Source: a virus. From it: DNA of 50,285 bases. Position numbers and translations under genes: made by a program. Numbering within the stretch: position 1 is the first letter of the stretch; every line of letters starts with the position of its first letter. Below are positions 10,351 to 40,200 of this stretch, piece after piece. Where the stretch lies: the IMG/VR virus record IMGVR_UViG_3300028388_002675, positions 1 through 50,285 of that record. One strand, written 5' to 3'. The notes beneath the pieces were generated by a model. It did no database searches, was not told where the DNA came from, and was given only the letters and a program-made list of their open reading frames with translations.

Positions 10351-10548
10351 TTAATTGTCGTCTGTTTTGGTTTGATGCTTTTCGTGTATTTCTTCCATGC
10401 GAGACTTTGCAAGTTCTCTAATTTTCCTTAACCAGCGCCTTGCTTCTCTGTGTGTACGCACACTATTACGAGCCTCAAATTTTTCGTTTGCCTTAAAATA
10501 AGCCATATATGCCTTTGTTAATTGATCATGTGTATCGTCGTCTATCAT
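10351..10548 (-). CDS. Conserved small charged protein downstream of gp46
   Basis: A 65-aa, highly charged, mostly helical protein (LTKAYMAYFKANEKFEARNS, then RRWLRKIRELAKSRMEEIHE). No cysteine cluster, membrane segment or known catalytic motif is seen. Its ATG overlaps the stop of gp46 (TAATG), so it is translationally coupled to the recombination nuclease operon. Small proteins of this type are common after gp46 in marine T4-like phages. Function unknown. Confidence 0.7.
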   Translation of the reverse strand: MIDDDTHDQLTKAYMAYFKANEKFEARNSVRTHREARRWLRKIRELAKSRMEEIHEKHQTKTDDN

Positions 10549-12438
10549 TACTCTACAATGTCTATGTCATTTGCGTATGACGTAAAGCCATTCTCCTTTA
10601 TAACTTTCATTACATGATTAACTCTGCCTACTAATTCGTCTTTGTGCGAAATTAGGAACACATTTTTATCACGTTCTCTGCCCATTTTCTTAAGAACACT
10701 TAATGAATTCTCAACACCTGCTGTATCCATGCCACTATCAATTAGCTCGTCAATAAACAACAGATTGATATTTTGATACAAACTCTCCCAAACATCACGG
10801 AATGCAAAGCTCATACCTAGTATAAGTCTATTACGCTCACCTCTTGACAAGTTATCAAAGTCTAGATCCTGACCTAGCTGTGTAATTTCAACGTTTAGAT
10901 CATTTTGAAACACAACTTGATGCGGTAAACCTAAACGATCAAGATAATATGTAAGTCTGTTGTTTAGATATGCAAGATTTTGATCAATAATTTTCTTACG
11001 GATAAAACTATCCTTATTTGTAAGAAGTTTAAGCAAGAATTCTTGATGTTCTTTAAAACTTGTAAGATCATTTACAGGCATCCAATCAATGTCTTGTAAT
11101 GCTGTGTTTGTTAGATCATCAATTTGTTCTTGATACGGATCTGCTTCTGTTTGCTTTGTTTCTAATGCTTGTTTTAAACTGTCAACGTTCTGTCTATGCT
11201 CGTAAGCTTCCTTGGCAGTTTCGTAAAACGTGTTAGGACGTCCGTTGATATTGCCAATTTCTTCCAGTCCTGCAAGCACATCTTTTAATTTTCCGCTAAC
11301 TTCGGTTTGATATGCTATTGCATCGTTTAATTCTTTAGTTTTTCTAGACAAAATTTCTTCTTTTTTGTCTGCGTGAAGCTCTTGTCCGCAAGTATAACAT
11401 GTAGCATCGTCGAGATTTGCGATGTCTTTTTCTGCTTTTTCAACACTTTTATCAGCACGTAATAGTGCAGAGTCTAGTGTACTTTTTTCTTTATTAAGAG
11501 CCAAAATAGCATTGTTCATTTCTGTCCAATTTGCTAATTTTTCGTGTGATTCTAACTCGGCATCTAATACTTTCTTTAATTTTTTCATTAGCTGTTTGAA
11601 TAGCATTTATCTTTGCTGTTTCTTCTGTAATAGCTTCTTTAGTCACACGAACTTGCTCTTTAAGTGCTTCGGCCTTTTCAGTAAGAATAGTAATACCTAG
11701 CAATTGTTCAATAATTGCACGTTGATCATTTGCCCGCATACTTAAGAACGGTTCGGTGTAGGTATTAAGTGCAACAATATGCTTAAACATATCGTGACTC
11801 ATGTTCAGTAAGTCATTAATAAATTCTTGTGTTTTGCGACTATCACCTTGCGATTCGTCGATCATTTCTTGTTCTTGATCGTTGATATAAAACTTGAGAA
11901 TGTTAGGCGAACGTCCTCTTTCAATGCGATAATCCTGTCCATCCTTTTCAAAATGCAAAGTGACTAACATGCCTTTGCTATTTGTCTTATTAATAAGATT
12001 ATTGCGTTTGATGTTAGTTAGTGCTGTACCATAGAGTGCGTAAGACAGAGCATTGATTATTGTAGTATTGTGAGAAAGAATTCCGTTAGTATAAAATCTA
12101 TGATCAGGATGATCTACAGTGAGATCAAACATGTTTTCTTCTATATCTGTTTTTGAGACTTTTGTAACTAAATCAGATCCGTTTTCTGTTATTATTTCTG
12201 TTTGGTTTTCGACAAGGTCTTTCGTAAAAATCTCGTTAAAATTTTTGTCAAACAAAATATGAGTATCTGCACAGTCTAACGACAATCCAGAAGCAGTTTT
12301 GATTTTCCATAGAGTGTATGGCACAGTTTTGTGGATAGAAGAAACAGGCTGCCAGCCACTATCTGTCTCTATTTCTAAATTAGACAGGTGAACGCTGTTA
12401 ATAAATTTTCTTTCTATTGTGTTAGAAATTGTATGCAT
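10548..12438 (-). CDS. 46: gp46 recombination endonuclease ATPase, C-terminal part with Int-C; one frameshift
   Basis: The ORF starts at ATG 12438 with a 124-residue intein C-part, ending NGILSHN at 12067, then the gp46 extein TTIINALSYALYGTALTNI. An AGGAAG lies ten bases before the ATG. The rest is an SbcC/Rad50-like ATPase: a coiled coil, a zinc hook CYTC, the ABC signature LSRGERNRL and Walker B LLFIDELIDSG. gp46 works with gp47 in end resection, recombination and host DNA degradation. The reading frame changes in an A6 run (11580-11585, minus strand). Removing one A joins ETAKINAIQTANEK to LKKVLDAELESHEKL in one frame, so a homopolymer error or a real indel is likely. Two parts: 12438 to ~11580, and ~11600 to 10548. 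Confidence 0.9.
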
Positions 12439-13599
12439 TTAGTTAAAACTTCCTCTTTGTTTTCTTTAAAGTCACTTTCCCAGATAATTAAAACTTCGTA
12501 GCTTTGATCTTGTGCAAATTGTATTTTGTCTTGGTCGGCTTTCCACTTATCGGATGCTTTTAGTTTAGTTCTTGGATTAACGAAGTTGGACGAATATTTT
12601 TTTGGATTAGCATGCCAAAAGTCGCCGTGATATTCAATTATTTTATTGCCAGCAGATATATCATAAATGTATTGTTTTTTGTTAGAGTCAGAAAGTGTAA
12701 GCTGATGAATAACTTCTAATTTTGGATTAGATTTTTTAACTTCTGATAAAATTTCTTTTTCGGCTTTAGAAACAGTTATTCCTTTTGTTAATTTTAACCT
12801 GTTAATTCTTGCTATTTCTTCTGCCGGTTTAGATTTTAATATCTCTTGCCATTTGTCCTGTCGTTCTTGCCAAACTTTTAATCCTTTTTCTTCTCCGTAT
12901 TTTTCTATACAAATTTCTTTAGAAAAATGTTTTTGTGACTCAGAGACTAATTTTTTAGCTTCTTCCTCAGAATAACCTCTTGCAGTAAAATATTCAGATC
13001 TCCTTTTAGATGTTATATTTCTAACATTAGACGATGCTGATTTCTTTGCACCTTTTTTGTTATTGGAGTTTTTTGTTTCTTCTGCTAATTCGATAGAGTC
13101 GCTTTCGCTGTAACCCTTTTTAATCCAGTATTCCTTTTTAATAGGGCGTCGACTATTCCTTTCAAAATCTGCTTCTTCTACAGTGTAATATGTGTTTGTG
13201 GCAGGATTGATTCTCTCAATCCAAAAATCTCTGCTATAAACACTTTTACAGTTTTTTTGTTTGTTTTCTTTCGACTTTATATAAGCTTCTTCCTCGCTCC
13301 AGCCGCGTAAAATCCAGTATTGTTTTGTATGGCGAGCGTGTTTAGAAAACAAATCTAACTTATCTCTAATATATTTTTCAATATCTTTTTTACTAGTAAT
13401 ATTTGCAGATAGCACGTCATTGAGAATTGTTTCTCTAATATCAGGTTTTAGGTTTTTAATAACATTGTCCATAATGTAAATGCAATTATCCTTTGGACTG
13501 TTGTTCCATCGCGGCATTGTATAACTCTCCTACTGTTGTTTCGTAAATTTCACCTGTTACAGTATCCCTTACTTTTACTACAGTATTTATACAAACACA
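12067..13599 (-). mobile_element. Split intein with free-standing homing endonuclease in gp46 Walker A
   Basis: Int-N begins with Cys at 13599 (CVCINTVVKVRDTVTGEIYE) and ends after 37 residues at the TAA 13488-13486. Int-C (124 residues, 12438-12067) contains a block-B-like DCADTHILF, a block-F-like LTVDHPDHRFYTNGI and the C-terminal HN. The extein reads NGTGK before and TTIINA after, so the insertion sits inside the P-loop and the +1 residue is Thr. Between the halves lies a separate Vsr-like endonuclease ORF. All three ORFs have their own starts and stops. The P-loop is rebuilt only if the halves splice in trans. The arrangement matches the fractured genes described from ocean metagenomes. 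Confidence 0.88.
12414..13517 (-). CDS. Homing endonuclease, Vsr-like (free-standing, between intein halves)
   Basis: A 367-aa protein. Three DNA-binding-like repeats lie near residues 67-88 (YWILRGWSEEEAYIKSKEN), 130-150 (YWIKKGYSESDSIELAEE) and 176-197 (YFTARGYSEEEAKKLVSES). A CIEKYGEEKGLKVWQERQ block follows (203-220). The C-terminal nuclease region has YDIS (285), IIEYHGDFWHANP (293-305), a W-x(2)-D-x(2)-K helix and YEVLIIWESDF (341-351). This is the order of very-short-patch-repair-like (EDxHD) homing nucleases. I chose ATG 13517 because an AGGAG lies nine bases before it, inside the Int-N coding sequence. The gene overlaps Int-N by 32 bases and Int-C by 25, in a different frame from both. 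Confidence 0.88.
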   Translation of the reverse strand: MPRWNNSPKDNCIYIMDNVIKNLKPDIRETILNDVLSANITSKKDIEKYIRDKLDLFSKHARHTKQYWILRGWSEEEAYIKSKENKQKNCKSVYSRDFWIERINPATNTYYTVEEADFERNSRRPIKKEYWIKKGYSESDSIELAEETKNSNNKKGAKKSASSNVRNITSKRRSEYFTARGYSEEEAKKLVSESQKHFSKEICIEKYGEEKGLKVWQERQDKWQEILKSKPAEEIARINRLKLTKGITVSKAEKEILSEVKKSNPKLEVIHQLTLSDSNKKQYIYDISAGNKIIEYHGDFWHANPKKYSSNFVNPRTKLKASDKWKADQDKIQFAQDQSYEVLIIWESDFKENKEEVLTKCIQFLTQ

Positions 13600-13755
13600 C
13601 TTGCCTGTTCCATTACGCGAGCCACTATCGTCGCCGCCTTGATCTAGATTTTCTCCTAGCACAAGTGTTAATTGTTCTCTGTTAAAGTCAACAGCTTGGG
13701 TTTGATTGCCCACGCTCATAAAATTCTTGACTGTAAGATCCTTAATTTTTATCAT
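13486..13755 (-). CDS. 46: gp46 N-terminal part fused to Int-N (split intein)
   Basis: An 89-aa ORF. Residues 1-52 are the N-terminus of gp46 (IKIKDLTVKNFMSVGNQTQA, then LVLGEN, then GSRNGTGK), i.e. the start of the ABC ATPase up to the Walker A lysine. Residues 53-89 are the intein N-part, beginning with the nucleophile Cys and carrying a block-A-like CINTVVKVRDTVTGE. It ends at TAA 13486. The ATG overlaps the stop of gp47 (ATGA). Without trans-splicing to the product starting at 12438, no complete P-loop can form. A 37-residue Int-N is shorter than the ~90-110 residues of common split inteins. Confidence 0.9.
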   Translation of the reverse strand: MIKIKDLTVKNFMSVGNQTQAVDFNREQLTLVLGENLDQGGDDSGSRNGTGKCVCINTVVKVRDTVTGEIYETTVGELYNAAMEQQSKG

Positions 13756-14762
13756 AGCTCGTTATAAATGTCCAAAAGTGTTTTCTTGTCGTAACTATCG
13801 GTGTCAAGTGCAGAAATTTCTCCAGCAACAATTTGATCTACACTTTCAAATTGTTGAATATCAAGTTCAGTTGAAATTTCTTCCATTTGTTTTTGTGGAA
13901 TAAGACTTATCTCTCTACAATTGTATTGTCTAATAAATGTCTCTTTGATAAATTGTGCTTCTTCGTATGAGATAGGCTTGTCAATAGTGACACGTAGATA
14001 CATTTTAGGTTTTATAATACTTTCGATATTATCCAGTAAATTGCTTAATGTCACGGTTCTGTATTTAGGACAATTTGGCCAGTTAATATATTCGGGCTCT
14101 TTATTATTTTCACGGTCGAGTATCATCATACCTCGCTCGTCATCGCCTGCATCTGCGTAATTATGTGGAAATGCATTACCGATATAGTGAATTTTGCCTT
14201 GTTTTTGTCGCTTGTGAAAGTGTCCACTAAACACATAGTCTTGATTTTTGAAATGCTCTGCTTTTAAATCACCATGATCTGGCATCTGTACCATAGCATT
14301 CATGTAAAAGCTCGGAAGTTCAAAATGTCCAAACATATATTTGGCTTTGATTTTTTCGATCTTTTTCCATTCATCACCTACTAACCACGGAACGAGACAC
14401 ACATTGTCGTCTTCATAGATCTCGTCTACAAATGTAATGCCCGGAATATATCTAGCAAATGCTGTTGAGTTTACATCACGTTTGTCTTTGTAATATAGGT
14501 CATGATTGCCATCGAAGAAGTAAAACTTTTCAAAACCAGCTCCTAGCTTTTCCATGCTACGGATAGTTGCATCCATAGTTGTAAGGTTAAGACTGTTTCG
14601 ATTATGATGCCAATCACCGCAGAAAATACCTGTTTCACAACCGTTGGCTTTTGCAGTTTCGATAAACCAATCTACAAACTCTTCGCAATCGTCGTTGTGT
14701 ACTTTGCTATTGCCTTTTAGTCCAAAATGGATGTCTGTAAACACCGCTGCTTTTTTAAACAA
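13752..14762 (-). CDS. 47: Recombination endonuclease subunit gp47 (Mre11/SbcD-like)
   Basis: A calcineurin-like metallophosphoesterase of about 336 residues. The metal-binding motifs appear in order: FTDIHFG (D-x-H), GDWHHN, FFDGNHD and GHFH. It is the nuclease partner of gp46. I prefer the TTG start at 14762 (FKKAAVFTDIHFG) because AGAGGAA lies six bases before it; upstream residues in the longer frame overlap the promoter and look unlike the family. A sigma70-type promoter lies just upstream at 14790-14818. The gene overlaps gp46 by four bases, giving a gp47-gp46 operon. Confidence 0.93.
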   Translation of the reverse strand: MFKKAAVFTDIHFGLKGNSKVHNDDCEEFVDWFIETAKANGCETGIFCGDWHHNRNSLNLTTMDATIRSMEKLGAGFEKFYFFDGNHDLYYKDKRDVNSTAFARYIPGITFVDEIYEDDNVCLVPWLVGDEWKKIEKIKAKYMFGHFELPSFYMNAMVQMPDHGDLKAEHFKNQDYVFSGHFHKRQKQGKIHYIGNAFPHNYADAGDDERGMMILDRENNKEPEYINWPNCPKYRTVTLSNLLDNIESIIKPKMYLRVTIDKPISYEEAQFIKETFIRQYNCREISLIPQKQMEEISTELDIQQFESVDQIVAGEISALDTDSYDKKTLLDIYNEL

Positions 14763-14789
14763 ATTTAAATTCCTCTTATATGCTGTTGT

Positions 14790-14818
14790 ATAATAACAGT
14801 TTTTTTGACACCTGTCAA
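14790..14818 (-). promoter_or_regulatory. Sigma70-type promoter for gp47-gp46
   Basis: The minus strand reads TTGACA (14818-14813), a 17-base spacer, then TATTAT (14795-14790), one mismatch from consensus. The -35 box is one arm of the inverted repeat TTGACA-CC-TGTCAA (plus strand 14805-14818), which could be a regulator site. It overlaps the 3' end of gp55. Confidence 0.7.
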
Positions 14819-15533
14819 CTATTTTTTTCCCTAGATTCGTTTTCGCGTTTTTGTGCTGCTTCCCATTCACCTGCATGTTGTCTAGTATAACTAGGATTTA
14901 ATCCGTTTTGTTCGAGTATGTCGTCTCTAATGTTTTGATTACGTTTTTCAATATTAATAACTCTTACAAATGAGTTTGTCACAGCAGCAGTATAATATGC
15001 AAATGGGTTTTGTGATTTTGATTCATCGAACTGTAGTCCGATTTGTGCTAGTTGTAAAATAGCTTGTCCTCGCATTTCATCATTGTATGTGTAACCACGA
15101 ACGTTGCCTCGAGTAGCGTAACGATCGCATAGTTTCATCCACATAAGAGCAAGCTTGTCAGTTGCCTTTCCGTGATCTTTTGAAAAATAGCCGTTATCCA
15201 TGCCACCTATCCAATGACTTTTCCCTACACAAATTAATTCATCATCGTCGTTAAATTTATAATGTTGGAAAGGAGGAAAGTTAAGTTTAATTTTAGTGTC
15301 TGCTACAGTTTTAGGATTTTTCTTACGACCCGGTTCTTCAGGAATATGATCAAATGTCATAATTCGAAAAATAAGTTCGTTTTTCTCCATTTTTCTATAG
15401 TCTATTTCGCAGTCTGCTTGTTTTACTTTTTCTCCTGCTAATTTCCTATGTTCAAAATCTTCGTTCTGTAATCTTTTTGCTTTATTATTTCCTTTAATAT
15501 GTCTTTATTATTTAAATAATTCGTTTTCCTCAT
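14815..15533 (-). CDS. 55: Late transcription sigma factor gp55, frame-broken near N-terminus
   Basis: gp55 is the sigma-like factor that directs host RNA polymerase to TATAAATA late promoters. The N-terminus starts at ATG 15533 with GGAG five bases upstream and reads MRKTNYLNNKDILKEI, matching T4 NYVNNKELLQAI. That frame stops at 15438. The rest is in another frame from about 15480: AKRLQNEDFEHRKLAGEK, IFRIMTFDHIPEEPGRKK, CVGKSHWIGGMDNGYF, then the sigma-2-like GYTYNDEMRGQAILQLAQI and SQNPFAYYTAAVTNSFVRVI. Residues between the two parts, present in relatives, are missing and the frame changes at ~15480-15500. ATG 15390 would give a 191-aa product without the N-terminal domain. Confidence 0.88.
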
Positions 15534-24700: not shown

Positions 24701-25216
24701 GTAATTTATCATCCAGTTAAGTATAAAATACTATTTGGCGATAAGGCAACTACTGATTTGCAAGCAAAGTTTAAAATTGTAAAAAATTCAGATATTGTAT
24801 TAAATGATAATGATGTTAAAAGTCGTGTAATTGCAGCGATAAATCAGTTTTTTGCACTGGAAAACTGGGAGTTTGGAGAAACATTTTACTTCTCCGAATT
24901 AAGCACCTATGTTATGCAACAGCTAGCACCAGATATTGTTACTTTTGTAGTTGTACCAAATCAAAGCACCCAAAGTTTTGGTAGTTTGTTTGAAGTGAAA
25001 TCAGAATCAGACGAAATTTTTATAAGCGGCGCAACCGTTGACGATATTGATATTATTGATGCTATTACAGCATCTAGATTAAGAGCAACCGGTGCAGTAG
25101 TTACAGCTACAAATTCTGCTAATGTAGGAATCCAGAGTAGCGGATTAAGTGCAAGTTCAAGAAGTAGTTCAAGCAGCAGTCTAAGCAGCGGCGGCGGCGG
25201 AGGATATAGTTACTAA
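21722..25216 (+). CDS. 6: Baseplate wedge protein gp6
   Basis: A 1164-aa protein with the gp6 N-terminal block DFDNLRRTMINYLRQNYPED and SSEYLALIDLIAFLGQNFAF, then FLELAERRESVLRLARLLSY, which are hallmarks of T4-like gp6. The C-terminus carries the J-like wedge region (VKYKILFGDKATTDLQAKF, then FYFSELSTYVMQQLAPDIVT) and ends in a Ser/Gly-rich tail. T4 gp6 has 660 aa; the extra ~450 residues lie in the middle (about 550-900) and look like inserted beta-rich material. gp6 dimers form the inner ring of the baseplate and bind gp25, gp53 and gp7. The stop overlaps the next ATG (TAATG). Confidence 0.93.
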   Translation: MSSTDRQNRLLIAEDWKRIYQSYRNADFKSYDFDNLRRTMINYLRQNYPEDFNDYIESSEYLALIDLIAFLGQNFAFRNDLNARENFLELAERRESVLRLARLLSYNPKRNQSANGLLKIESVQTSEEIRDSNNVNLANQTILWNDPANTNWYEQFIKIMNAALPVNNAFGRPIKSDNVNGVPTQQYRFNSTNADTPVYGFSKTIDGVSARFEIVSTDVFDGNIIEEPPFPGNNFAFLYRDDGRGFASSNSGFFCHFRQGTLDQGTFNVQSPSNNQVVAIDAVNVNNTDVWLYKLDSFGAEEELWTRVDAVEGNNVIYNSLSKSIRNIYSILTRANDRISLIFSDGTFGNLPQGQFRVYYRTSKNQRLVIDPADMRGLSIRIPYLSKTGKQESLNIVFSLRYIVDNASASETNTSIKANAPATYYTQNRMVTAEDYQIGPLTVSQEIVKAKSVNRLASGISRYFDLKDVTGKYSETNLFAKDGVVYKEFLNPKQTFSFVTRTDVEGAIVNVIEPILGDRKLKNFYLNSFPKTLVGDLNVIWNNLTSDTNQSTGYFTNASGLRAELGQFTASTLKLIKPGSLIKFEAPEGFHFMADNEHGLMEGAANHPNAVTYKWTKVVSVIENGTTTQEDGTGPVLFNDIIPSGAKLVQIVPRLATALQSQVKTQIIDQTFAYRTFALRFDTNIGEWRVITNNNLNVIDNFSIGKAGDKTNQQLDASWLLLFETDGDKYTITYRASRYVFESDNEVRFYYDSSDKIYNSSTGEIIKDRISVLEINTQPDTTQSFTVNYDWEVVEEYRDAEGYVNSKKIQVSFFDSDDDGVVDDPDIFDVIVDEATNTTSKYIFLQKNTTSDGVEDFNYVLQSELEVIVLSSKNNIGALSQYQDSQIFYYIDQDIFEVLNKSAGTLSITQEYKARAGRDGLKFQYIHAADASTRIDPSVSNIIDTYLLTRTYDTQFRQYLEGTTAALPLPPSSDELFLNYGANINKIKSISDEVIYHPVKYKILFGDKATTDLQAKFKIVKNSDIVLNDNDVKSRVIAAINQFFALENWEFGETFYFSELSTYVMQQLAPDIVTFVVVPNQSTQSFGSLFEVKSESDEIFISGATVDDIDIIDAITASRLRATGAVVTATNSANVGIQSSGLSASSRSSSSSSLSSGGGGGYSY

Positions 25217-28200
25217 TGGCATACGAAAACGATCAAAATGAGCCAGCTCTTCCAGTAGGCGGAGATAGCAAAAGGAAAAGTGCTAATCATTTACCGCGAT
25301 ATTATAGAACTCAAACCAATCGGAAATTTTTATCTAGCACCGTAGACCAATTAATTCAACCAGGTGTAGTAGAAAAAATAAATGGTTATATTGGAAGAGA
25401 GACTGCAAAGGCATTTACGTCGACTGATAATTATGTTGGTGATGTAAGTGCAGCAAGGCAAAACTATCAATTTGAACCAGCTACAGTTATCAAAGATGAT
25501 TTGAATAATGTAACTTTTTACAAAGACTACAACGATTATGTAAATCAACTTGATAGTTTTAATAAAGGCATACAAGATCATAGTATTTTCAATAGCGAGG
25601 AATACTATGCTTGGAATCCACATATAGATTGGGATAAATTTTCAAACTTTAGAGAATATTATTGGCTTCCAAATGGTCCGCAAAGTATTCCTGTGGCTGG
25701 CAATACAGTTGATGTTGAAAGTAACATAAAAGTCACTATTGGCGACAACGTTGATAATAACTCTTACATGTTTTCCAATGCTGGTACTGTGAATAATCCT
25801 ACAATAACTCTATACAGAGGACAAACATATAATTTTGAAATTAGTACACCTAACCTGCCATTTACAATTAAAACACAAAGGACCCTAGAAGACGACTTTG
25901 CTTTAGACTCTAGTAGTATTTTCGTAGTACAAGGTGTAAGTATTCAAAATCTAGAAAACGGCATAACAACAGTACGCCTAGGCGAAGATGTCCCAGATAT
26001 ACTCTATTATGTGGCAGCAAATGACATTAATGCTGCAGGAACAATTATTGTAAAAGACATAGAAGAAGCAACATTTATTGATATTGAAAGCGAAATTTTA
26101 GGAAAGCGTTATTATAAAACAGCCGACGGGATAGATCTTTCAAACGGGATGAAAATTTATTTCACTGGAGATGTTGAACCTTCTACATATGCAGAAGGTG
26201 CATACTATGTAGAAGGAGTAGGTGATAGCATAACGCTTGTGCCAGAAACAAAATTAAATACTCCAACAGCATTTACAGCCGATGTAATTTTAAAATTCGA
26301 CGACGAAGAAGCTGGCTTTGATAGACTACCGTATGGCACAGCAGTTGGCTATCCAGAAGCTAAAGATTATTTTGTAATAAACAGGGCTTCAGTAGACGGT
26401 AATATTTGGTCTAGATATAATAGATGGTTTCATAGAAGCGTGATTGAAACATCGGCAGCAGCAAACAATCAGCCAGTGTCCGTGGATCAAAATTCGAGAG
26501 CAAAACGTCCTATTATTGAATTCGAAGCTGGGCTAAAACTGGCAGAGTTTGGAACATTTGCAAAATTAGATGTAGACCTAGTTGATGACTATACAGCAGA
26601 TGTATTTTCTATCATCGAAGGAAGTCAAGGATATAATATCGACGGAGTAGATATTATTGAAGGTATGAGAATACTTTTTACAGCAGACACTGACATACGT
26701 GTTGCAGGAAGAATATTTGAAGTAGAATTTTTAAATTTTGCAGGCGGCGCCAGTACTAATCGACAAATACATTTACAAGAAGTTTCGGACACAGAACCAT
26801 TAGAAAATGAAGTTGTTTTAGTCCGACAAGGAAGTGATTATGCCGGTAGACTTTTCTACTACGATGGTAATAAATGGAAACTTACGCAAAATAAAACAAG
26901 TGTGAATCAACCTCCTTTATTTGATATATTCGATGAAGACAGTGTATCTTACACTGATACGACAGTATATCCTGCTAACAATTTCGAAGGTACCAAAATC
27001 TTTAGTTATAAGGAAGGATCAGGCGCTGAAGATAGTGAATTAGGTATACGTGTATCCTATAGAAATATAGAAAACGTAGGTGATATTATTTTTGACTTTA
27101 ATCTACTGCAAGATAGTATGACGTATACATTAGAAAATAATATTATAACCAAGAATACTAATATTGGCTTTGTAAGAAAATATGCCGATAGGACAACTTT
27201 TGAAACAGCAAACGGATGGATTACCGCCGAAGTTGATAGCGAACAGCCAGTTATACGACAATATGTATTTGATAATTCTACTGTTGGTTTTGAAATTAAT
27301 GTGTATGATAATTCGGCAGAGCTTGATGATTTATGGATTAGAGTATATCTCAATAATGTTTTGAAATTTGAAAATATAGACTATACATTGAGCACTAACA
27401 TACAAGGTAACATAGTTGTAAACTTTAACAGCGACCTAACAGTAGGAGATATAATCCTAATAAAAACAAAAAGCTCTACACTAAAAAATGAAAATGGGTT
27501 TTATGAGATACCGATTAATTTAGAAAGAAATCCGCTAAATGAAGATCTAGTTGACTTTACTCTAGGAGAAGTAAATGATCATGTGAGCACAATAGTTGAG
27601 TCAACAGATGAATTTGCAGGAACATATCCTGGTACAAGCAATTTGAGAGATCTAGGTCCATTATCAAAGTATGGTAAAAGATTTGTACAACATAGTGCTC
27701 CTATTAATTTAAGTTTGTATCATCTTTTGACTAAAGACAGTAATGTTGTAAAAGCAATTGATTATGCAAGGAAAGAATACTCCAAATTTAAAAGACTATT
27801 CATTACAACAGCAAATGAACTTGGATATGACGGGCCTGTAAAAGATCATGTAGATAAGATATTACAAGAAATAAATAGATCTAAAACAAAAGCTATGCCG
27901 TTTTTCTTTTCGGATATGGTGCCGCTTGGCGCTACAAGGAAAAACTCGTATACGGTTGAGGATGTTGATTTTACATTCTTCGGATTGAGCGAAACTTTTG
28001 TACTTACGGAACAAACCCGCAAGGCTGTGCAAGTTTACCAAAATGGCTTACAATTAACTTACGGCAAAGATTATACTTTCAATGCAGACGGATTCTGTGT
28101 TATTACAGCAACAAAGGAACTGGATGATTTAATTGAAATATATGAATATGAAACTACAAACGGATCTTTCGTACCACCTACACCTACAAAACTAGGATTG

Positions 28201-31200
28201 TATCCTAAATACGAACCTGTATTATACACAGACAATACATATCAAACTTTTTATGACAACGAAGGAACACCGCTAGACGGATCAGGACCTCGTGCAGTCA
28301 TTCAAGGGCACGATGGCAGTATAACGATTGCATATAATGATTTTAGAGATAACTTAATTTTAGAGTTAGAAAAACGAATCTATAACAATATCAAAGTGGA
28401 ATATAATACAGACCTTTTTGATATACATGATTTCGTAGGCGGCGAATTTAGGAATACTAATTTAGATAGGAATCACCTAGATAACCCTATGCTGGGAGAT
28501 TTTGTTGATTGGAGTAATTTTGTAGAAACTGATTATACACTGCATGACTTTTTTGAGCGTACTAATAGATTTACCTTCAATTACAAAAATCTACAATCTC
28601 CCAGCGATAAAACACTGCCTGGATTTTGGAGACAGATATACAAGGAAGCTTATGATACCGATCGTCCACATACCCATCCGTGGGAGCTTTTAAGTTATAC
28701 AATCAAACCGACTTGGTGGGAAGAAGTCTATGGACCTGCTCCGTATACTAGAGATAATTTAATTCTATGGCAAGATCTTGAAGGAGGTATTGTTAGAGAA
28801 CCGAATAAAAAATTAGTGACACTAGAAAAATACAAGCGACCAGGATTAACTAGCCACATTCCGGTAGATGAATCTGGAAATCTTCTTTCTCCTGTTGATA
28901 GCGGGTATATTAGAAATTATACAACTCAAAATATAGATGATAGTTTTGTGTTTGGAGACGGTGCACCTGTTGAAAGTGCTTGGCGTAAAAGTTCGGAATA
29001 TCCTTTTAGTTTAATAAAGTCTATAGTCATTAATAAACCTAGCAAGGCTTTTGCCACTGCATTTGATAGGATTAGACAAGTTAGGAATTTAGCAGGACAA
29101 TTAGTCTACAGTACCACTAGTCAACGACTACAACTTGCTAACATTGTGTTTCCTAACACTGCCGAAGAAGAAATACAGGTCTATACTTCTGGACTAGTGA
29201 ATTATATCAATAACTACATGACTGCGGATGTATTAAGAGCTTACGAATTGTATAAAACTAATGTTGCTTCTATTAGAAATCAAATAGGTTTTAAAATTGC
29301 AGGCTTTACAGACAAAGACAAATTTAGATTGATACTTGACAGTAGAACACCTACAAATGAAGGAAATGTCTTTATTCCTGATGAAAACTATCAAATATTT
29401 CTAAACACTAGTAGTCCTGTTGAGACTATAAGCTATAGTGGTGTAATTATAGAACGTAGGGATGACGGATATGTTATTAAAGGATACGATAGACAAAATA
29501 CAGTTTTCAAATATCATAGGGCAGTCAGTTCGCAAAATGATCCTAGTATTAACATAGGCGGAATAAGTGAACCATTTCTTTTTTGGGAATCTGGCAAACA
29601 ATATGTTCCAGGAACAAACGTAGAATTTGAAGGCTCATATTATAGAGTAAAAAATGCACATACTAGTGCCAACGACTTTGCTGTTGAAAATTTTTCCAAA
29701 CTCCCATTCCTTCCGTTAATTGGTGGTAGAGATGCATTTATTAGAAAACAATTTATAGATACATTTGAAGAAGAATTAAAATATGGTACAATTCTTCCTA
29801 CAATACAAGATGTGGTTGATTTTTTATTAGGATACGGCGATTGGTTAGAATCAAAAGGGTTTGTATTTGATTATTTTGACGGAGACTCGGGCAATGTTAT
29901 TAACTGGAGACACAGTGTAAACGAATTCCTATTTTGGACTACACAAAATTGGGCAGCAGGCAGTGTAATTACTTTAAGTCCTGCTGCTACAAGATTAAAA
30001 TTTAATTCTAATTACAGTACAGTTGATAATATTTTCGATAACTTTTACGGACACACTCTTTTAAAATCGGATGGTAATAAACTAGTAGAAGAATTTAGCA
30101 GCCTTGGTCGTGAACCAAACGAATTTATAATACAGCCTAGAAACACCGAAGATGGAATTTTTGCAGTTAGACTTCCGCTAGTGCAAAAAGAACATGTTTG
30201 TCTAATAGACAATAGAACTGTGTTCGGTGATATAATTTATGATATACAACCTGGTTATCGGCAGGAACGAATAAAAGTTCTAGGGTATCGTACAGATAGT
30301 TGGGACGGAAGTCTAAACATTCCAGGATTCATATATGATAATCTTGTAATAGAAGAATGGGAAGCATGGAAAGACTACACAATTGGCGATGTTGTCAAAT
30401 ACAAAGAATTTTACTATACTGCGAATAATAAAATTCCAGGCGAAGCAACATTTACATCTAGTAATTGGAATAGGTTAACTGGAAAGCCAGAGCCGGGATT
30501 GTATGCAAACTTTGAATACAAAACAAATCAGTTTGCAGATTTTTATGACCTTGATAGTGATAACTTTGATACTGAACAACAACGACTAGCGCAACATCTG
30601 ATCGGATATCAAAAACGTCAATATCTAGAAAATATTGTAAATGACAGTGTTAGTCAATATAAATTTTATCAAGGGTTTATACAAGATAAGGGAACACAAA
30701 ACGCACTTACAAAACTGTTTGATGCATTAAGTTCAGACAACAAAGACAGTTTAGAATTCTATGAAGAATGGGCAATTAAAGACGGACAATATGGTGCATC
30801 TGAAGGTTTTGAAGAAATTGAATACAAACTAGACGAATCAAAATTCAGATTAACTCCGCAGCCTATAGAATTAGTAAATTCTGTCACAGGTAACGAAACT
30901 GATTTGATTTATAGAATACTGCCTTTCGAAACGTATGTAAAAAATAATACCTACAATCATAGTGCTGCATTTCCAAGAAAAAATATTCTAGATACATATA
31001 TAAAAAATGCAGGATATGTCAATCAAGAAGATGTACAAGGTATTACAACTACATACCAAGATATAACAAATTTCTTCTATACACAAATTGCAAAGGATAG
31101 CTATATTTGGGTAGGTAATCAAAACCGAACATGGAATGTTTATAAACATGTTGCTACACCGTACACAATTGAAAGTATACAATCAGGCGATAACGAATTT

Positions 31201-34200
31201 TCTATAATTGTAGATGCTACACCTACAGATATTTTTGCTGGTGATGTGATCGGAATAGGCGATTTGTACAAATATAATGCTGTAGGTTCTGAAGATAGTA
31301 GTCAAACTACTAGCTATGAGAAATATGATCTAGAAGGATTTTTTGTAGTATCTTCTATTACAAATAATAATATAGTTTTGAAGTCAGACCAAACAATTGA
31401 AACGATTGAAAGCGTAAGAGGCTCATTAACAAAGTTTTTAGCTGTACGTGCAGGAGATGCAATCGAAGCAAATACCATTTTACAAAAAGGTGTCACAATT
31501 AACGATCTGATCTGGATTGATAATAATGGTTCGCAATCTTGGAATGTATTAAAAAATAATCAATCTTATTCAAAACTTCAAGAATTATCCAACAGTGCAA
31601 CAGGTTCTGATCATAATTATGGATTTAGTTTATCAGCAGATGATAGAAATACAACTTTACTTGTGGGTGCGCCTGATTATGAAAACGGTAGGGTTTTTGT
31701 TTATTCAAGGCCTGCAAATAGTGTTAATTTTGTGCAAACACAAATTATAGAACCGTTTGGGTTTGGCGACGATAGAGAAAGATTTGGAGCAAGTGTTGCT
31801 GTAACTCCTGACGGGGAATATGCAATAATTGGATCTCCGAGTGCATCAAATGTTAAAACAAAATATGCAGGAGCATTTGTTGAAACTACGGATTACGGAA
31901 AAGGATCCATAGTGTTAAAAGATCAAAGTCTATGGCAGTCGTTGGTTGATATAGAAGGGCAAGAAGATAATATTGTATTTGCAAGTTTCGGCAGTACTAC
32001 ACAAGCAATAGAAACTCTATCTCTAGAACTAGATTCTACAAATCAAAGTCCTGTGCTTTTAGCAGGAAATTATGCAGTAAATAGATTAACCGGCGACTAC
32101 GCCTTTCCAGGACTTTCGGTAAATCATGTGCTTGTAAGGGTACCTCTTGATATATATGACGGTTCTGGAGAAGATGATGAAGTAAAACTAGGATGGAATA
32201 AAAGAACATACTCTAATCAAAGTCAATCTGTTTTAGCGGATAGAGAACCTTTTAATGGCGATTATCCGTTAATAACAGGAGAATATCTCGAGTCAGATAA
32301 GACTATCAAACACAAAGTAGATGTAATACTATATATTGAATCAGCTACAAACGTGCCAGAAATAAATGATATTTTACAAACTAGAACAGGTAGCGGAACA
32401 GTAGCTTATGTTTTCAATGAAGCTGCCGAAACCGTAATCTATATAAAAAATGCAAATGGTACTTTTAACAACGAAGATAGTTTGTTTAGAAACGATGGAG
32501 ACTTCATAGGAAATTATGAAAAACAAGCCCCTGTAGACAATATAGATGCAGCAGATGTATGGGGCGGTTATTGGTTCATACAAACAGGGTCTTACACTCC
32601 TACACTACAAACAAATGTTGCAGATGAAGGTAAAGCACTAGTATTTTATGATGTTATAAGCGATAGTACTTCTACAGGTAGATTCTATTACAATAGTTTA
32701 GATTTTGTAGCAGGAGTTACAAACAGTCAAAACACCATAGGAAGCTACATAGAAGTTTTAAGCTTTACAGGGTCACCAGGACCTGGCGCAGTTACAGGAG
32801 ACTTTCTATCAGATAAATTTGTAGTAAGGGCACCAAAACAAGTAACCGATGCATACAGTGCAGGTCAAGAAATAGATTTATATGTCAACCAGCTGCCTAG
32901 ATATGGTACAGGTATAATTAAAGACCTTGCAGAAATTAATTTAACATCAGCAATAACAAACAAAAAGCATACTATAAGTGATATATGGGATGGATATATC
33001 AACTTTAATTTGACAAAATTTGATGCAGGAGGCAATCCGTTTGAGCCGAAAGTTGGTCTTATTGTAAGAGACAGGACACGAGAAGGTGAAGCAGAAGTTG
33101 CATATGTGCAAAAAAATGGTCTTAATGTTAATATCTTTGTAAAAAATGTCACAGGTGTCTGGTCAGTAGGTGACGATTTTGGACAAAACGCTGAAATAGA
33201 ATTTGTAGGTGTTCCTTCGGATCCCGATGTAATATATCAAGTTGATCGTATTATGGGGCAGATTCAATTTACAGGTTTAGGTTATGATCCTGCTAATATA
33301 GGCGGTTTGTTAGTACTAGAAGCACCCAATGATATTGCGGTTCCGAATGTTCCTGTACTTACAGATGTAGAGTGTTGGTTTTATAATGAAAGTAATATTT
33401 TAGGTATTCCCAGACCTGCAAACGCACCAAGTCCAGTTAATAATGAATGGACACAAGTCTTCAAGATATCTGCTGATTCTACAGGAACACCAAGCGGGCT
33501 AACAAATGAAGGAATGTATTCACTGTATCAAAGATCTGTGCCTGGCAATTACGCTCTTGTTGGATCATATACCGTACCAGAAAAGCAAGCAAACTTCTTT
33601 TTAGGTAGTCAAATAAAAATTACAAAATTTGATGATCTTTATAGAGCATTTATTCATGCCAAAGGTGAACAGACCGAATTTTCACCTGGTAGGATTTATT
33701 TGCTGAAAAATGGATTAGAAAACAGCTATTCGTATGACTGGGAATATGCAAAAAATAAAAAGTTTAAAGGTGCATTCAACGAGAGTTTAAATTATTATAC
33801 TGGAGATATTGTATATCTTTCAGACCCTGATGGAACTCTGTATACAGCAAAAACGAATATTGCTGCAGGCACATTTGATATTAGAGATTGGACGTCAACT
33901 AATGATATAGTAGATTATGTGGGTTATATCCCTAATAACACCGGATTAAGTGTTGTTACTGACAGTACAGTATTGCCTATAGTTTTAAATCAAAGTAATA
34001 TGTATGATTTTGGATCGGACTATGACATAAGCAAAAACGGCGATGTATTAGTTGTCTCTGCCTTGTACAACAATGATGAAGCTAATAGAGTCGTTGTATA
34101 CAGATCAAATAATGGATTTTTTGAAAGACGTCAAGAAATATTAGCTCCTACTAATACTAGTGGTTTTGCACAAAGTATTTCAATTAGTGATGACGGCATG

Positions 34201-37200
34201 CTTATTGCAATAGGCGAACCATATGACAATGACGTAAGATTAGATCAAGGTGTTGTTTATATTTACAAACAGACCAACGGGGAATTTTCTCTGCATCAAA
34301 CCTTGAACAGTCCAAATAACGAACGTGCAGAATTATTTGGATGGAATCTAGAATTTGACGGCGGGTCTCTTGCAATTACAGCAAGGAATGCAGATAGTTA
34401 TGTGTCTACCACATTAGACAATAATGAAACTACATTTGACCAAAGTTTTACTACATTCAAAACAATAAACGATGACAGCGGAGTAGTTTATTTGTACGAA
34501 AATTATAATAATAATATGATTTTTGGACAGATAATTCAGTCTGCAGATGCAAATATAAATTACTTTGGCAGAAATCTTTTAGTAAAAAATAATCATGTGT
34601 ATGTAGGCCTACCTGCATTAACAAAAAATAGTTTACAAGGAAGAGTGTTAGATTATAGTAAACCTGAAAATACAAAAATTTGGTCTATACACAGATCCGA
34701 AAAAGAAAGTGTAGATATTTCAAAAATTAAAAAAGTATTTTTGTATAACACTGTACAGAAAGAACTAATTACATATCTTGATTATATAGATCCTTTACAA
34801 GGAAAAGTATCTGGTGAAGCAGAACAAGATATAAGATTTAAAACATATTATGATCCTGCCACATATACAAATACAGACAATGCGAGCAGCCGCAGAATTG
34901 TTGTTGACATTACCAACGGATGGGGCAAAGAACATGTTGGCGAAGTGTGGTGGGATTTGAGCACAGCAAAGTTTTACAATCCCTATCAAGATAGTGTAAT
35001 TTATAGTACACAAAACTGGAATCAAGTTTTTATTGGTAATAGTATAGATGTTTACGAATGGGTCGAAAGTGACGTAATACCTAGTGTATGGGACCAACGT
35101 GCCGACACAAATACCTATTTTCCAAGAGGTTATAGCGGAACAAGTATCTACGGCGATAGTGTCTATTCAACTAAATCTATATACGATAGTGTAGCACAAA
35201 CCTTTAAGAGAAAGTATTATTTCTGGGTAAAAGATAAAAAGATAGTACCTAATGTAGAATTTAGAAACATTAAATTAACTGATATAAAAAGTTACATTGA
35301 AGATCCACGAGCGGCTGGCTTAAGATTTATGGCATTTATAAGTCCTACACAGTTTGTTTTGTTTAATTGTGAAGATTTAATAAAAGATCAAGATGTTGCA
35401 TTAAGTGTGCAATATTGGTCGATAGAAAACCAAACACAAAATATACATAATCAATATCAGATAATTTCAGATGGATTAGAAACAAGTCAGCCTAAAGCAG
35501 ATATTATACGCAAGTGGTATGACAGTTTAGTAGGCTATGATGAACAAAAGCGTACTGTCCCTGATCCTGCTTTGAGTGCAAAATACAAATACGGTATTTT
35601 AAATAATCCGAGACAAGGATGGTTTGTAAATAGGATTGAAGCACTAAAACAGGTAATTGAAAGAACTAATAGAGTACTTTCACAAAATCTTATTATAGAT
35701 GATAAAGACATCAGTGCATTGTTTACTAATGAGGAAGCACCCAGTGTTGCATCTAGACTATATGATACTAGTGTAGATACATTAGCTGATCTAGAATTTA
35801 TAGGTGTTGCCAGGGCAACCAGAGCAAGTCTAACTCCTGTTATTTCTAATGGAAAAATTACAAGAGTAATAATAGATAACCCAGGTAGAGGATATCGTGT
35901 AGCACCTACAGCTACAATAAGTGGAAATGGTGAAGACGCAGAAATTGAACTAGAAATTAATAGTATAGGTCAAATTACAAGTGCAACAGTGTTAAACCAA
36001 GGTAATAATTATGATAGTAGTACGCTTATAACCGTGAGAAGATTCACCGTGTTAGTAGAAACCGATGATACTATACAAGGTAAATGGGCATTGTATGAAA
36101 GAATACAAGAATCTGGTACGTGGAACAGAATTAAAAGTCAGTCCTTTGATACAAGGCTTTTCTGGGATTACAAAGATTGGTATGCCGAGGGATATAATGC
36201 TCTCACTGATATAGATTATTTGATCGATAATTCTTACGAACTAACAAGTCTTGAAAATGTTATTGGTGATGTAGTTAAAATTTCAACAATCGGAAATGGC
36301 GGGTGGCTACTTTTAGAGAAAATTAACAATCAAGATACAGCTGATTATACAATAAATTATAAGACTATCGGCCGAGAAAATGGCACAATAGAGTTTAAAA
36401 ACAATTTATATGACTTTGCTGAATCAAATGTTGGGTTTGACACAATAAGTTTTGATACAAAAATCTATGACAGTGAACCTGTAGATGAATTACGTATAAT
36501 CCTTAATTCTATAAAAGATGATTTACTTATCGATAAATTAAAAATTGAATTTAACCAATTGTTCTTTGCAAGTTTAAGGTATGTGATGAGAGAGCAGCCT
36601 TATGTAGATTGGATGTTTAAAACAAGTTTTATCAAAGCAAAGCACAATGTAGGATCATTAAGAAGAGATATTACATTTAATAATGATAATTTGCCAAGTT
36701 ACGAAGCATATGTAAAGGAAGTTAAACCTTTTGCTACAAAAATACGAGAATATTTAAGTGCATATGAAGGTTTAGATAACACACAGACTCTAGTAACTGA
36801 TTTTGATTTACCTCCAGTATATAAGGATGCATATAAAACCATACTTCCTGAAGCAGTAAAAGTAGTGAACAATACACTTATTGGAATAGATGCAGATATA
36901 GACACATATCCAAATAAGAATTGGCTAGATAATGCCACATATAAGATTACCAGTGTCGATGTAGTAGAACCGGGCGCAGGTTACACTAGTCCTCCACAGC
37001 TAACGGTAGAAGGCGGCGGCGGAACTGGCGCAGTTCTACAGGCGTATTTAGGAAGAAATGGCAGAATAACTGATGTAAAGGTAATCAATCAAGGTAGTGG
37101 ATATTACAGTACTCCTATAGTAACAATTAATGGAAATTTATTAGATACAGGAACACCTGCAAAGTTTTCGGTGAATATAGGGGATAGTCCTGTAAGAAAT

Positions 37201-40200
37201 ATTCACACTATAGTAAAATTTGACAGAACAACAGGGACTTACTTGCATACAATCCTGTCTCAAACTGAAACTTTTATAGGCACAGGAAGTAAGTTTGAAT
37301 ATCTTTTAAAATGGCCAATGGACTTGCTTACTTCAAATGTTACAGTGATTGTAGATGGAATTGAACTTTTAGAAAGCCAATATTCTTATACTAATGAACT
37401 GGATGTATCAAAAGGTTACGATAGATATTTTGGACAAATAAGATTTACTGAAGCTCCAGAATCAGCTAAAGAAATTGTAATTAGTTATAAAAAAGCTGTA
37501 GAATTGCTGCAGGCACAGGATAGAATAAATCAAATTTATAGTGCTGATCCTGGACAGTTAGGAAAAGATTTATCTCAATTAATGGATGGCATAGATTATG
37601 GTGGTGTAGAAGTCAAAAGTTTTGGCTTCAAAGGAGCCGGAGGGTGGGATGCCGGCGATTGGTACTCTGACACATGGGACGCAACCTATGATTCAACATT
37701 CGAGGATGAAATTTTTGAGTTTGACGGATCTACTATAGAAATTTCATTAAGCAAACCTTTAGAGTCTGGTGTGGTATACAATATCTATTATCAAACCCCC
37801 ACAGACAGTCAACCTGTGAGAATAGATGATCCTAACTTTGATGGATCAACTATTATTGATAATCCAAACGCAATTATGCGTTCATTCATAGGCGACGGAG
37901 TCACACAAACTCTATTCCTTGATGATTTTAAATTAGGAACATATCAAGAAGATGGATACAACACAGGGGTATCTCTCCGAACTGGTGAAGGTTATAAACT
38001 TATATTAAGAAAATCTACAAGCGATGGTACTTTTGATATAGATCCAGAAGGATACGATACCATACTTTCAGGCGGAAATTTAAATTATTCAACGGCGACT
38101 GGACTGTTAGCAGAAGATATTACAATTGACGGCGACGGTTTTGTAACACCTACAACCTCTAAAGGACCTGAAGAACTTGTGCCTGGTCAGATTCTTGATA
38201 CAGTTGATATTCAAGTATACGAAAGACCAAAAGGAGGTGCAAGTCCTATAACAAGTAGAGTTTATATTGGTGATGGATCTACAAAAACTTTTAATATAGG
38301 ATCTGCTCCTATATTTGAAGAAAGTGTATTTGTAAAAGTAGGTTTTGAAATAAAAGCTACTGACGACTACACCATTAATTACAGAGATAACACAATAACA
38401 TTTGTAACAGTACCAACTGCAAATGAAAAAATCAGCATTGTAACTTTGGGTGTAAGCGGCACAAATATATTAGATATAGATCAATTTGTAGCAGACGGCA
38501 GCACTGCAGAGTTTCTTACAAACGTTAGATGGAGCGATAAATTATCCTACTATGCAACATTAGATGGCCAGAAATTAGAAAACATTATATTTAGATCAGA
38601 TGAATCTTATGAAGCATCTAATAATGCTGTGATAAAATTCCCTTCGCCACCAGCAGCTGGAAGCATAATACGTTTCGCATTCTTTGAAAACACAACAGTG
38701 ACTGTTACAGAACAAGACGGAACATTATCTTTCAATGATACAATACCAAATTATAGTGAAGTTACAATCGATAACTTCGTTGCTGATGGTAGTACTGTAA
38801 GTTATGAATTATCACAAACTCCGTTTTCACAAGAATCACATGCTTGGTTTACGATTGTCAAAGTTAATAATAAGATCCTAGATGCAGGCTATAACAAAAG
38901 ATTTACAGTTTCGCAAGGAATATTGGAATATAAATTAGATGAATGGCAGAAACCTGCAGGAACTGTAAGAAGTAGTCAAATTAAAGTGTATCTAAATAAT
39001 GTTGAATTAGAATACATCGAACAATGGGTTTATATCGGCAATCCTAGCACAGTTAGTCAAGACGGAAGCCTGATTAGGTTGCAGTCTGGTTTGACTATTG
39101 CGGATGGAGATATTTTAGACGTTTATGTGCTTAATGATGGTGAATATGCATTTGGCACATTTGATGAAAATCAGGAATATACACCTACACCTGGTATATT
39201 GCAGTTGAATAATGCATATACTGAAGGTGATACTATCTCTGTGTATCAATTCAGTAATCATGATAGTCAAGGTTTTGAAAGACAGCAATTTGATGTTGTT
39301 GATAGATTTAATATTACTAATCTTGATGATGGTAGCAGTGTTCCTGTAGATGACGCAACCTATCCAGAAGATTGGTATAAAATTCAACATTTAAGAAATG
39401 GCCTTATAGAATTAAGAGAAGAGGCAGTTGATGCACAATATGTTTGGGTATCAATAAATGGAGATCTGCTTACACCTAACGTGCATTATTATGTTACAGA
39501 TAATAGACATTACGTTAAAATTAATGCAGATATCGCAGAAAACGATACGATAGAGATCATACAGTTTGCAAACCCAGTAACAAAAAATAGATTAGCTTGG
39601 AGGCAATTCAAAGATATGCTTAACCGTAATCACTACAAGCGTTTAGACGGCACAGCAAATATTGTATTAGCCCAAGATTTAAATTGGTATGATAACGAAA
39701 TTATTTTAACTAACGCAGATAGTTTACTAGAGCCACAGCCTCAATCAAAAACGCCCAGTGTTATTTTTATTGAAGGTGAAAGAATAGAATACTTTATAAA
39801 AGATGGTAACAAACTTAAACAACTACGCAGAGGCACACTAGGAACAGGTGTTAAAAATACTTATATTGCAGGTACCGAATTATATAATCAGAGTCAAGAT
39901 GCAACTATGCCGTATAAGGACGAAACAATTACATTAGTTCTAACAGCAGATGGCACAAGCACTGCATATGATCTAGACTTTACCCCTAATAATGTAAACG
40001 AATTTGAAGTTTTCGTTGCAGGACGTAGATTGCGTAAAAATGCTATTGGTTCTTACATACAACCAGATCCAACTTATCAAGATTCGCCCGAAGGAGATGA
40101 AACATTAGAAGCAGAATTTACTGTAGATGGAAATGTGCTAACCTTATTAGAAGCACCGAGTGAAAATCAAAAAATAATTATAGTTCGTAGACAAGGAAAA

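Follow-up and report, generated by a model that had tools for sequence, protein, structure and literature searches.

A short-N split intein in a phage gp46 gene, with a Vsr-like nuclease gene at its break, is a probable mobile fractured-gene element

Fractured genes with a Vsr-like (EDxHD) nuclease were reportedly described by Dassa in 2009. The typical split site of such genes leaves an N-terminal intein half (Int-N) of about 100 to 120 amino acids (aa) (PMC12707363, PMC13014065). Natural short-N breaks lie at one of two sites, S1 after strand 2 (VidaL, PolB16) or S2 after helix 1 (AceL and GOS TerL) (PMC13014065), and the natural Int-N is 37 aa long in GOS-TerL and 25 aa in AceL-TerL (PMC11766414, PMC13014065). 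Here we describe a split intein in gp46 of IMG/VR record IMGVR_UViG_3300028388_002675, a stretch of 50,285 nucleotides (nt) called the window, whose gene content (gp47, gp46, late sigma factor, portal and baseplate genes) is that of a T4-like phage. A nuclease open reading frame (ORF) lies between the split-intein halves of this one host gene, as in fractured genes, and according to the predicted fold the break is at site S2. The locus is probably a mobile fractured-gene element, for which we infer trans-splicing and homing. The features are as follows.

13600..13755, minus strand: gp46 (SbcC-like) N-extein, residues 1-52, last residues GTGK (Walker A); PHROG 77, expectation value (E) 1.5e-7
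13489..13599, minus strand: Int-N of 37 residues, confined to block A and helix 1; from sequence, conservation and fold
13486-13488, minus strand: Int-N stop codon TAA, directly after the 37 codons
13527..13531, minus strand: AGGAG, Shine-Dalgarno-like, within the Int-N helix codons; nuclease ATG 9 nt downstream
12414..13517, minus strand: homing-endonuclease-like ORF, 367 aa, with a helical N-terminal part and a C-terminal Vsr-like nuclease domain
12067..12438, minus strand: C-terminal intein half (Int-C), 124 residues, M...SHN, with block B (DCADTHILF) and blocks F and G; from profiles and fold
11494..12066, minus strand: first part of the gp46 C-extein, beginning TTIINALSYALYG; PHROG 77, E 3e-38; frame lost near 11564-11569
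10548..11606, minus strand: remainder of the gp46 C-extein in another frame, zinc hook and C-terminal ATPase lobe; PHROG 77, E 1.5e-46
13752..14876, minus strand: gp47 (SbcD-like), the gene upstream of gp46; PHROG 100, E 7.8e-72

The intein splits gp46 directly after the Walker-A lysine (GTGK^T). Int-N begins with a cysteine (C1 at 13599) right after GTGK, and gp46 resumes with TTIINALSY on the 3' side, where the first C-extein residue (+1) after the SHN of Int-C is Thr in the window. A preliminary description of this DNA had proposed a 37-residue Int-N that breaks off ahead of block B, a block B lying beyond the nuclease gene in a 124-residue Int-C, and a nuclease gene exactly in the break. 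The coordinates proved exact, with 37 codons and then TAA; block B occupies Int-C residues 55-63; and the placement of the nuclease gene is true here and generalizes to relatives. Profile searches recognized no second block B in the nuclease ORF upstream of Int-C. The nuclease ORF overlaps the Int-N tail by 32 nt at its 5' end and Int-C by 25 nt at its 3' end. Because AGGAG lies 9 nt ahead of the nuclease ATG, the Int-N helix codons double as a likely ribosome-binding site. Among the loci compared, the nuclease ATG was kept in 12 of 13 and a purine-rich G-tract in all 13; the ATG was lost in L015 (4843-4956), where it is now ATT and the nuclease frame is still open.

From an IMG/VR scan for this intein, the best 80 of 323 confirmed loci were kept. 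A full Int-C was present in 21 loci (L002-L022), giving 13 distinct sequences including the window. The break position was identical in all 12 distinct gp46 relatives, and the nuclease was present in 10 of them. C1 of Int-N and H60, D105, H123 and N124 of Int-C were invariant across the 13 distinct loci. The intein has the residues of class 1, namely the nucleophile C1, the block-B His, the terminal His-Asn and a +1 nucleophile (Thr). The length of Int-N varied from 31 to 57 residues among relatives; it is not fixed because the nuclease gene begins within the codons of the tail beyond the helix. Int-C scored above the cutoff of TIGR01443 (intein C-terminus), while its match to Pfam Intein_splicing (E 0.0012) was under the gathering score. 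When the window was compared with L003, Int-C had a ratio of nonsynonymous to synonymous substitution rates (dN/dS) of 0.056, and the nuclease one of 0.155. The intein-terminus score, the conservation of both halves in 12 other loci, the dN/dS values below 1 and the confident fold indicate that the arrangement is not due to chance.

The fold was predicted with AlphaFold2 for the relative L005, with the halves in one frame, the intervening TAA read as Q and an alignment of 41 other sequences or fragments from which the short L022 Int-N row was left out. The joined halves formed a complete Hint fold (mean predicted local distance difference test [pLDDT] 88.4, predicted template modeling score [pTM] 0.81) with 61 Protein Data Bank (PDB) matches at E <= 0.001. 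In this model, Int-N contributes strands at residues 7-12 and 18-22 and a helix at 23-37, residues 39-57 (the linker at the break) are disordered and form the sole segment below 50, and Int-C supplies the remainder. The break past helix 1 and the location of block B within Int-C correspond to S2 as defined in PMC13014065. The top Foldseek match was VidaL (E 7e-9, TM score 0.82 on target); Cat, the AceL/GOS-TerL consensus, stood at rank 41 among other inteins, and the structural alignment to CatC showed about 24% identity. VidaL (E 8.6e-8) and CatC (E 2e-5) were also the best PDB sequences for the Int-C profile, and no Int-N profile match of use was obtained among PDB sequences. The preliminary description had likened the intein to the short-N type of AceL-TerL and proposed folding the joined halves and comparing them with such inteins; the S2 break, the CatC match and the complete fold uphold that likeness. 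In an Int-C tree, however, the window's intein and AceL/GOS-TerL fell in separate clades, indicating that it works like AceL/GOS-TerL but is not one of them.

The nuclease ORF has a helical N-terminal part with YWxxRGxSxEEA-type repeats and carries a Vsr-like nuclease domain. Its AlphaFold2 model had a pLDDT of 84.8 and a pTM of 0.45, and at this pTM the domain placement is uncertain. For the nuclease domain, Foldseek returned Vsr (1cw0; probability 1.00, E 0.10) and the I-Bth0305I catalytic domain (3r3p; probability 0.97). The ORF is homologous to a 'putative VSR endonuclease' located between the fractured polB halves of Aeromonas phage Aes123 (E 3e-9). A tblastn search with the nuclease found 40 phage records, including one from Caulobacter phage Cr30 in which a free-standing copy (L167:3527-4549; 45.6% identity over the matched half) lies directly upstream of a TerL that is not interrupted. 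An IIE[FY]xGDxWH-type core (IIE[YF]xGD[FY]WH-type) was found in 24 of 27 aligned nucleases, and the L094 nuclease scored 600 bits over the full Vsr-type profile. The nucleases of L107, L108 and L159 share a KCIEKYGEExG...RQxKW module and have different ends, assigned to Pfam T5orf172 (GIY-YIG-type) at E 4e-6 in L107, slightly under the gathering score in L108 and by alignment to L108 in L159. Judged from these sequences, one catalytic module seems to have replaced another at one break.

Two intein-free gp46 alleles with an intact P-loop (L023 and L024) define the insertion as 12067-13599, 1533 nt. DNA identity between the window and these alleles was 84.7% from gp47 to the insertion point and 89.7% over the first 506 nt beyond it. 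At fourfold sites, the window differed from L002 at 35 of 99 positions in the intein and nuclease and at 47 of 61 in the gp46 flanks (P = 3e-7), and from L003 at 37 of 116 and 41 of 59, respectively (P = 3e-6). The gp46 of the window was closer to the intein-free L024 (fourfold differences of 24/56 and 10/22). These differences fit the element having moved recently from one gp46 allele to another.

We infer splicing, cutting and how events followed one another in the gp46 clade, as set out below. Three proteins would be made from the overlapping ORFs: gp46N-IntN, the Vsr-like homing endonuclease and IntC-gp46C. Int-N, with its two strands and helix 1, would dock on Int-C and complete the Hint domain split at S2. 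A class 1 reaction (Cys1/Thr+1) that uses Cys1, the His of block B, the Asp of block F and the terminal His-Asn pair would then ligate GTGK to TTII, and this ligation would restore the Walker A motif and an active gp46. The nuclease would cut intein-free gp46 alleles, with recombination copying the whole 1533-nt block. The break would mark where the nuclease gene settled in a once contiguous intein, and upon later deletion of the nuclease the intein would usually remain split.

Nucleases were also found at short-N breaks in a wider set of inteins. The wider gp46/TerL scan of IMG/VR kept the best 80 of 211 confirmed loci, and the AceL/GOS-TerL-type scan, which was not dereplicated, the best 80 of 125; the frequencies therefore apply to those loci. 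Among the Walker-A inteins of gp46 and TerL, taken from the wider scan and the first one together, 46 distinct Int-C cores scored at least 120 bits, four of which (L135, L140, L148 and L151) had no Int-N placed and were counted by their nuclease. A nuclease was present in 38 of the 46, being Vsr-like in 35 (three ending at a contig edge and one, L095, apparently disrupted) and T5orf172 (GIY-YIG-type) in 3; the remaining 8 had none. Among the AceL/GOS-TerL-type loci, 73 of 80 had a GIY-YIG gene (65 full length and 8 ending at a contig edge). These genes are 63 to 100% identical to their L170 counterpart, which matches PF01541 at E 8e-7. Five were split without a nuclease (L214, L228, L230, L236 and L242), L224 was contiguous and L210 starts at Int-C. 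Two TerL genes (L170:1511-3391 and L255:1102-3216) contain two inteins each, one at Walker A and one downstream. The third family, VidaL, comprised five loci. L249 matches VidaL without difference across the 101 residues used, and its break holds an ORF of 380 residues that includes the Vsr-like core. L250 contains part of the nuclease ORF and L251 lacks one; L252 does not differ from L251 across the 1059 nt shared, and L253 is contiguous. Among cultured phages, UvsX of Pseudomonas phage Paride provides an example that has a nuclease-like ORF.

Several of the nuclease-less forms retain traces of the gene. In L005 and L019 the nuclease is lost with both overlapping ends left, and L005 keeps a 40-residue remnant of it. 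Nuclease ends were detected with hidden Markov models (HMM) in L005, L119 and L124 and by reading in L019; by eye, L214 and L228 look likewise to keep them. The spacer of L251 aligns to the final codons of the L249 nuclease, indicating that the spacer is a fossil. In L139, L143, L146 and L150 no nuclease remnant was found. The AceL-type, nuclease-less L236 (1340-1480) has a 37-residue Int-N whose last ~10 residues resemble the final codons of the nuclease; GOS-TerL may be a parallel case, and such fossil codons would then explain why its 37 residues are reducible to 27.

Contiguous relatives were found as well. In Campylobacter Firehammervirus, CP220, WX1 and IBB_35 carry a contiguous TerL intein, which in F379 is fractured by a gene that looks GIY-YIG by eye; F379 and IBB_35 share 96% DNA identity across Int-C and the adjoining TerL. 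The nuclease was covered by 2 of 15 related Firehammervirus records (F379 and CJLB-13). CJLB-12 (L261, a Campylobacter phage; TerL) lacks the nuclease, its halves overlap out of frame and the second half has no obvious start. The Int-C of the window matched 319 phage records, of which 236 bear the name of a Salmonella, Klebsiella or Escherichia phage. In the six Ackermannviridae inspected (Magnus, Kuja, VAP7, A221, Vi01 and PP35) the TerL intein was contiguous in all. The Int-C tree covered 102 of 189 loci after removal of incomplete Int-C or identical cores. The contiguous/split label changed at least 5 times on it (shuffled mean 9.7, minimum 7). The gp46/TerL split clade, which has a support of 0.80, joined the Ackermannviridae group, which has one of 0.97.

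The recurrence of nucleases at short-N breaks, together with contiguous relatives in each lineage, makes short-N splits look like scars of nuclease entry. We therefore lean slightly toward the view that natural short-N split inteins of both sites (S1 and S2, including the laboratory tools VidaL and AceL/GOS/Cat) are not chance fissions but scars left by homing-endonuclease genes of unrelated families that entered the Hint fold at a second position close to helix 1, that nuclease codons survive as fossils in some Int-N tails, that nuclease modules were swapped, that the break outlives the nuclease and that refusion occurs. Support for nuclease entry comes from the three lineages and Firehammervirus. 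Ordinary gene fission without a nuclease, with nucleases settling later in the existing intergenic gap, is a rather unlikely origin of the short-N split. Nuclease-less split forms do exist in both the gp46/TerL family (8/46) and the AceL/GOS type (5/80), and fission may have come first in the four loci with no remnant found, but five nuclease-less forms (L005, L019, L119, L124 and the VidaL-type L251) keep recognizable nuclease ends and closely related contiguous forms exist. The nuclease-entry view joins odd split sites prized for protein labeling with selfish nuclease genes. If true, it would account for dispensable Int-N tails and guide the search for more ultra-short split inteins (locate the nuclease and read its flanks), and natural contiguous/fractured pairs such as the TerL of Campylobacter phages CP220 and F379 would allow a direct measurement of what a split close to helix 1 costs.

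Several observations weigh against a functional, mobile fractured-gene element in the window. HMMER gave no credible Pfam family for the nuclease, the assignment being by fold and homology, and the Foldseek E-values are weak (0.10 at best, for Vsr). Of nine silent-site comparisons, two were strong, two nominal (uncorrected P = 0.018 for L006 and 0.036 for L093) and five without difference at 0.05 (P = 0.051 for L094, 0.19 for L103, 0.24 for L004, 0.26 for L021 and 0.85 for L011). The Int-C tree leaves the contiguous-to-split direction in the gp46 clade unordered (clade support 0.80). The block-B Thr (N3:7) is replaced in all 13 loci by Ala, the invariant A57 of Int-C, three residues ahead of H60 and Thr in most inteins; fast-splicing VidaL likewise has Ala there in an HMM alignment. 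Finally, about 98 nt of L024 gp46 are absent from the window near 11564-11569, which shifts the frame within the coiled coil and leaves the downstream ORF open. An unbroken gp46 C-extein in the window was considered and rejected, since the missing stretch breaks the frame. The stretch was lost either through a recent deletion or through an assembly fault, and this copy is therefore either defective or misassembled. The frameshift downstream of the intein and the block B without its usual Thr would suit a decayed, non-splicing intein in a gp46 that is simply broken and has a nuclease inserted. This is very unlikely, however, given that all catalytic positions are invariant in the 13 loci, dN/dS is below 1, the fold is confident and relatives keep an open frame at the beginning of the C-extein.

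That Int-N is joined to Int-C in one chain by frameshifting or readthrough, making the intein effectively contiguous, is hardly credible: the halves share a frame in the window and in each of the 12 distinct gp46 loci whose contig includes both halves, with a single TAA interrupting it in L005 and L019, but in most loci a nuclease gene of ~1.1 kb in another frame sits between them, the register is lost in other family members, and the nuclease and Int-C each have their own start codon. A shared frame was rejected as a general rule, as it holds in the gp46 clade and fails in the wider family; the common frame in that clade is read as inheritance. Elsewhere in the window, the Rad50 zinc hook in the gp46 remainder scored E 5e-4, under the gathering score, and 25216-40290 is a single ORF of 5024 codons between baseplate and tail-fiber-like genes.

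Among known systems, the Ackermannviridae TerL mini-inteins (159 aa in Klebsiella phage Magnus) belong to the same intein family (36 to 43% identity to Int-C by tblastn) and share the Walker-A insertion point GK^T, but they are contiguous, have no nuclease at the position of the break and lie in TerL instead of gp46. The P-loop of gp46 in another phage (L079:295-1929) holds, at the same GTGK^ site, an unrelated contiguous Ser1 maxi-intein with a LAGLIDADG-like middle part (nuclease family judged by eye). The literature searched, in its accessible portions (including PMC6892783, PMC10189870, PMC11766414, PMC12707363, PMC7891396, PMC7090010 and PMC13014065), contained no gp46 split intein, no statement of nucleases at S1 or S2 breaks and no fractured gene that is split at S2; the primary AceL, GOS and VidaL papers were outside its scope, and a prior report is possible. 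VidaL is the best match in sequence and fold, with a C-A-x-x-H block B and, at L249, a Vsr-like nuclease, but it is broken at S1, ahead of helix 1, with an Int-N of 16 aa, and its host gene is UvsX (named from the Paride annotation and by eye). GOS-TerL and AceL-TerL (S2, consensus Cat) share the split after helix 1 and the short Int-N, and their IMG/VR relatives share the nuclease gene in the break; they differ in the host gene (TerL), in the GIY-YIG nuclease and in a +1 Cys instead of Thr in the loci compared. Fractured genes with a Vsr-like nuclease, such as Aes123 polB, share the order host-N/Int-N, nuclease, Int-C/host-C, the overlaps and a homologous nuclease domain. They break at the typical site, whereas the intein of the window breaks at S2.
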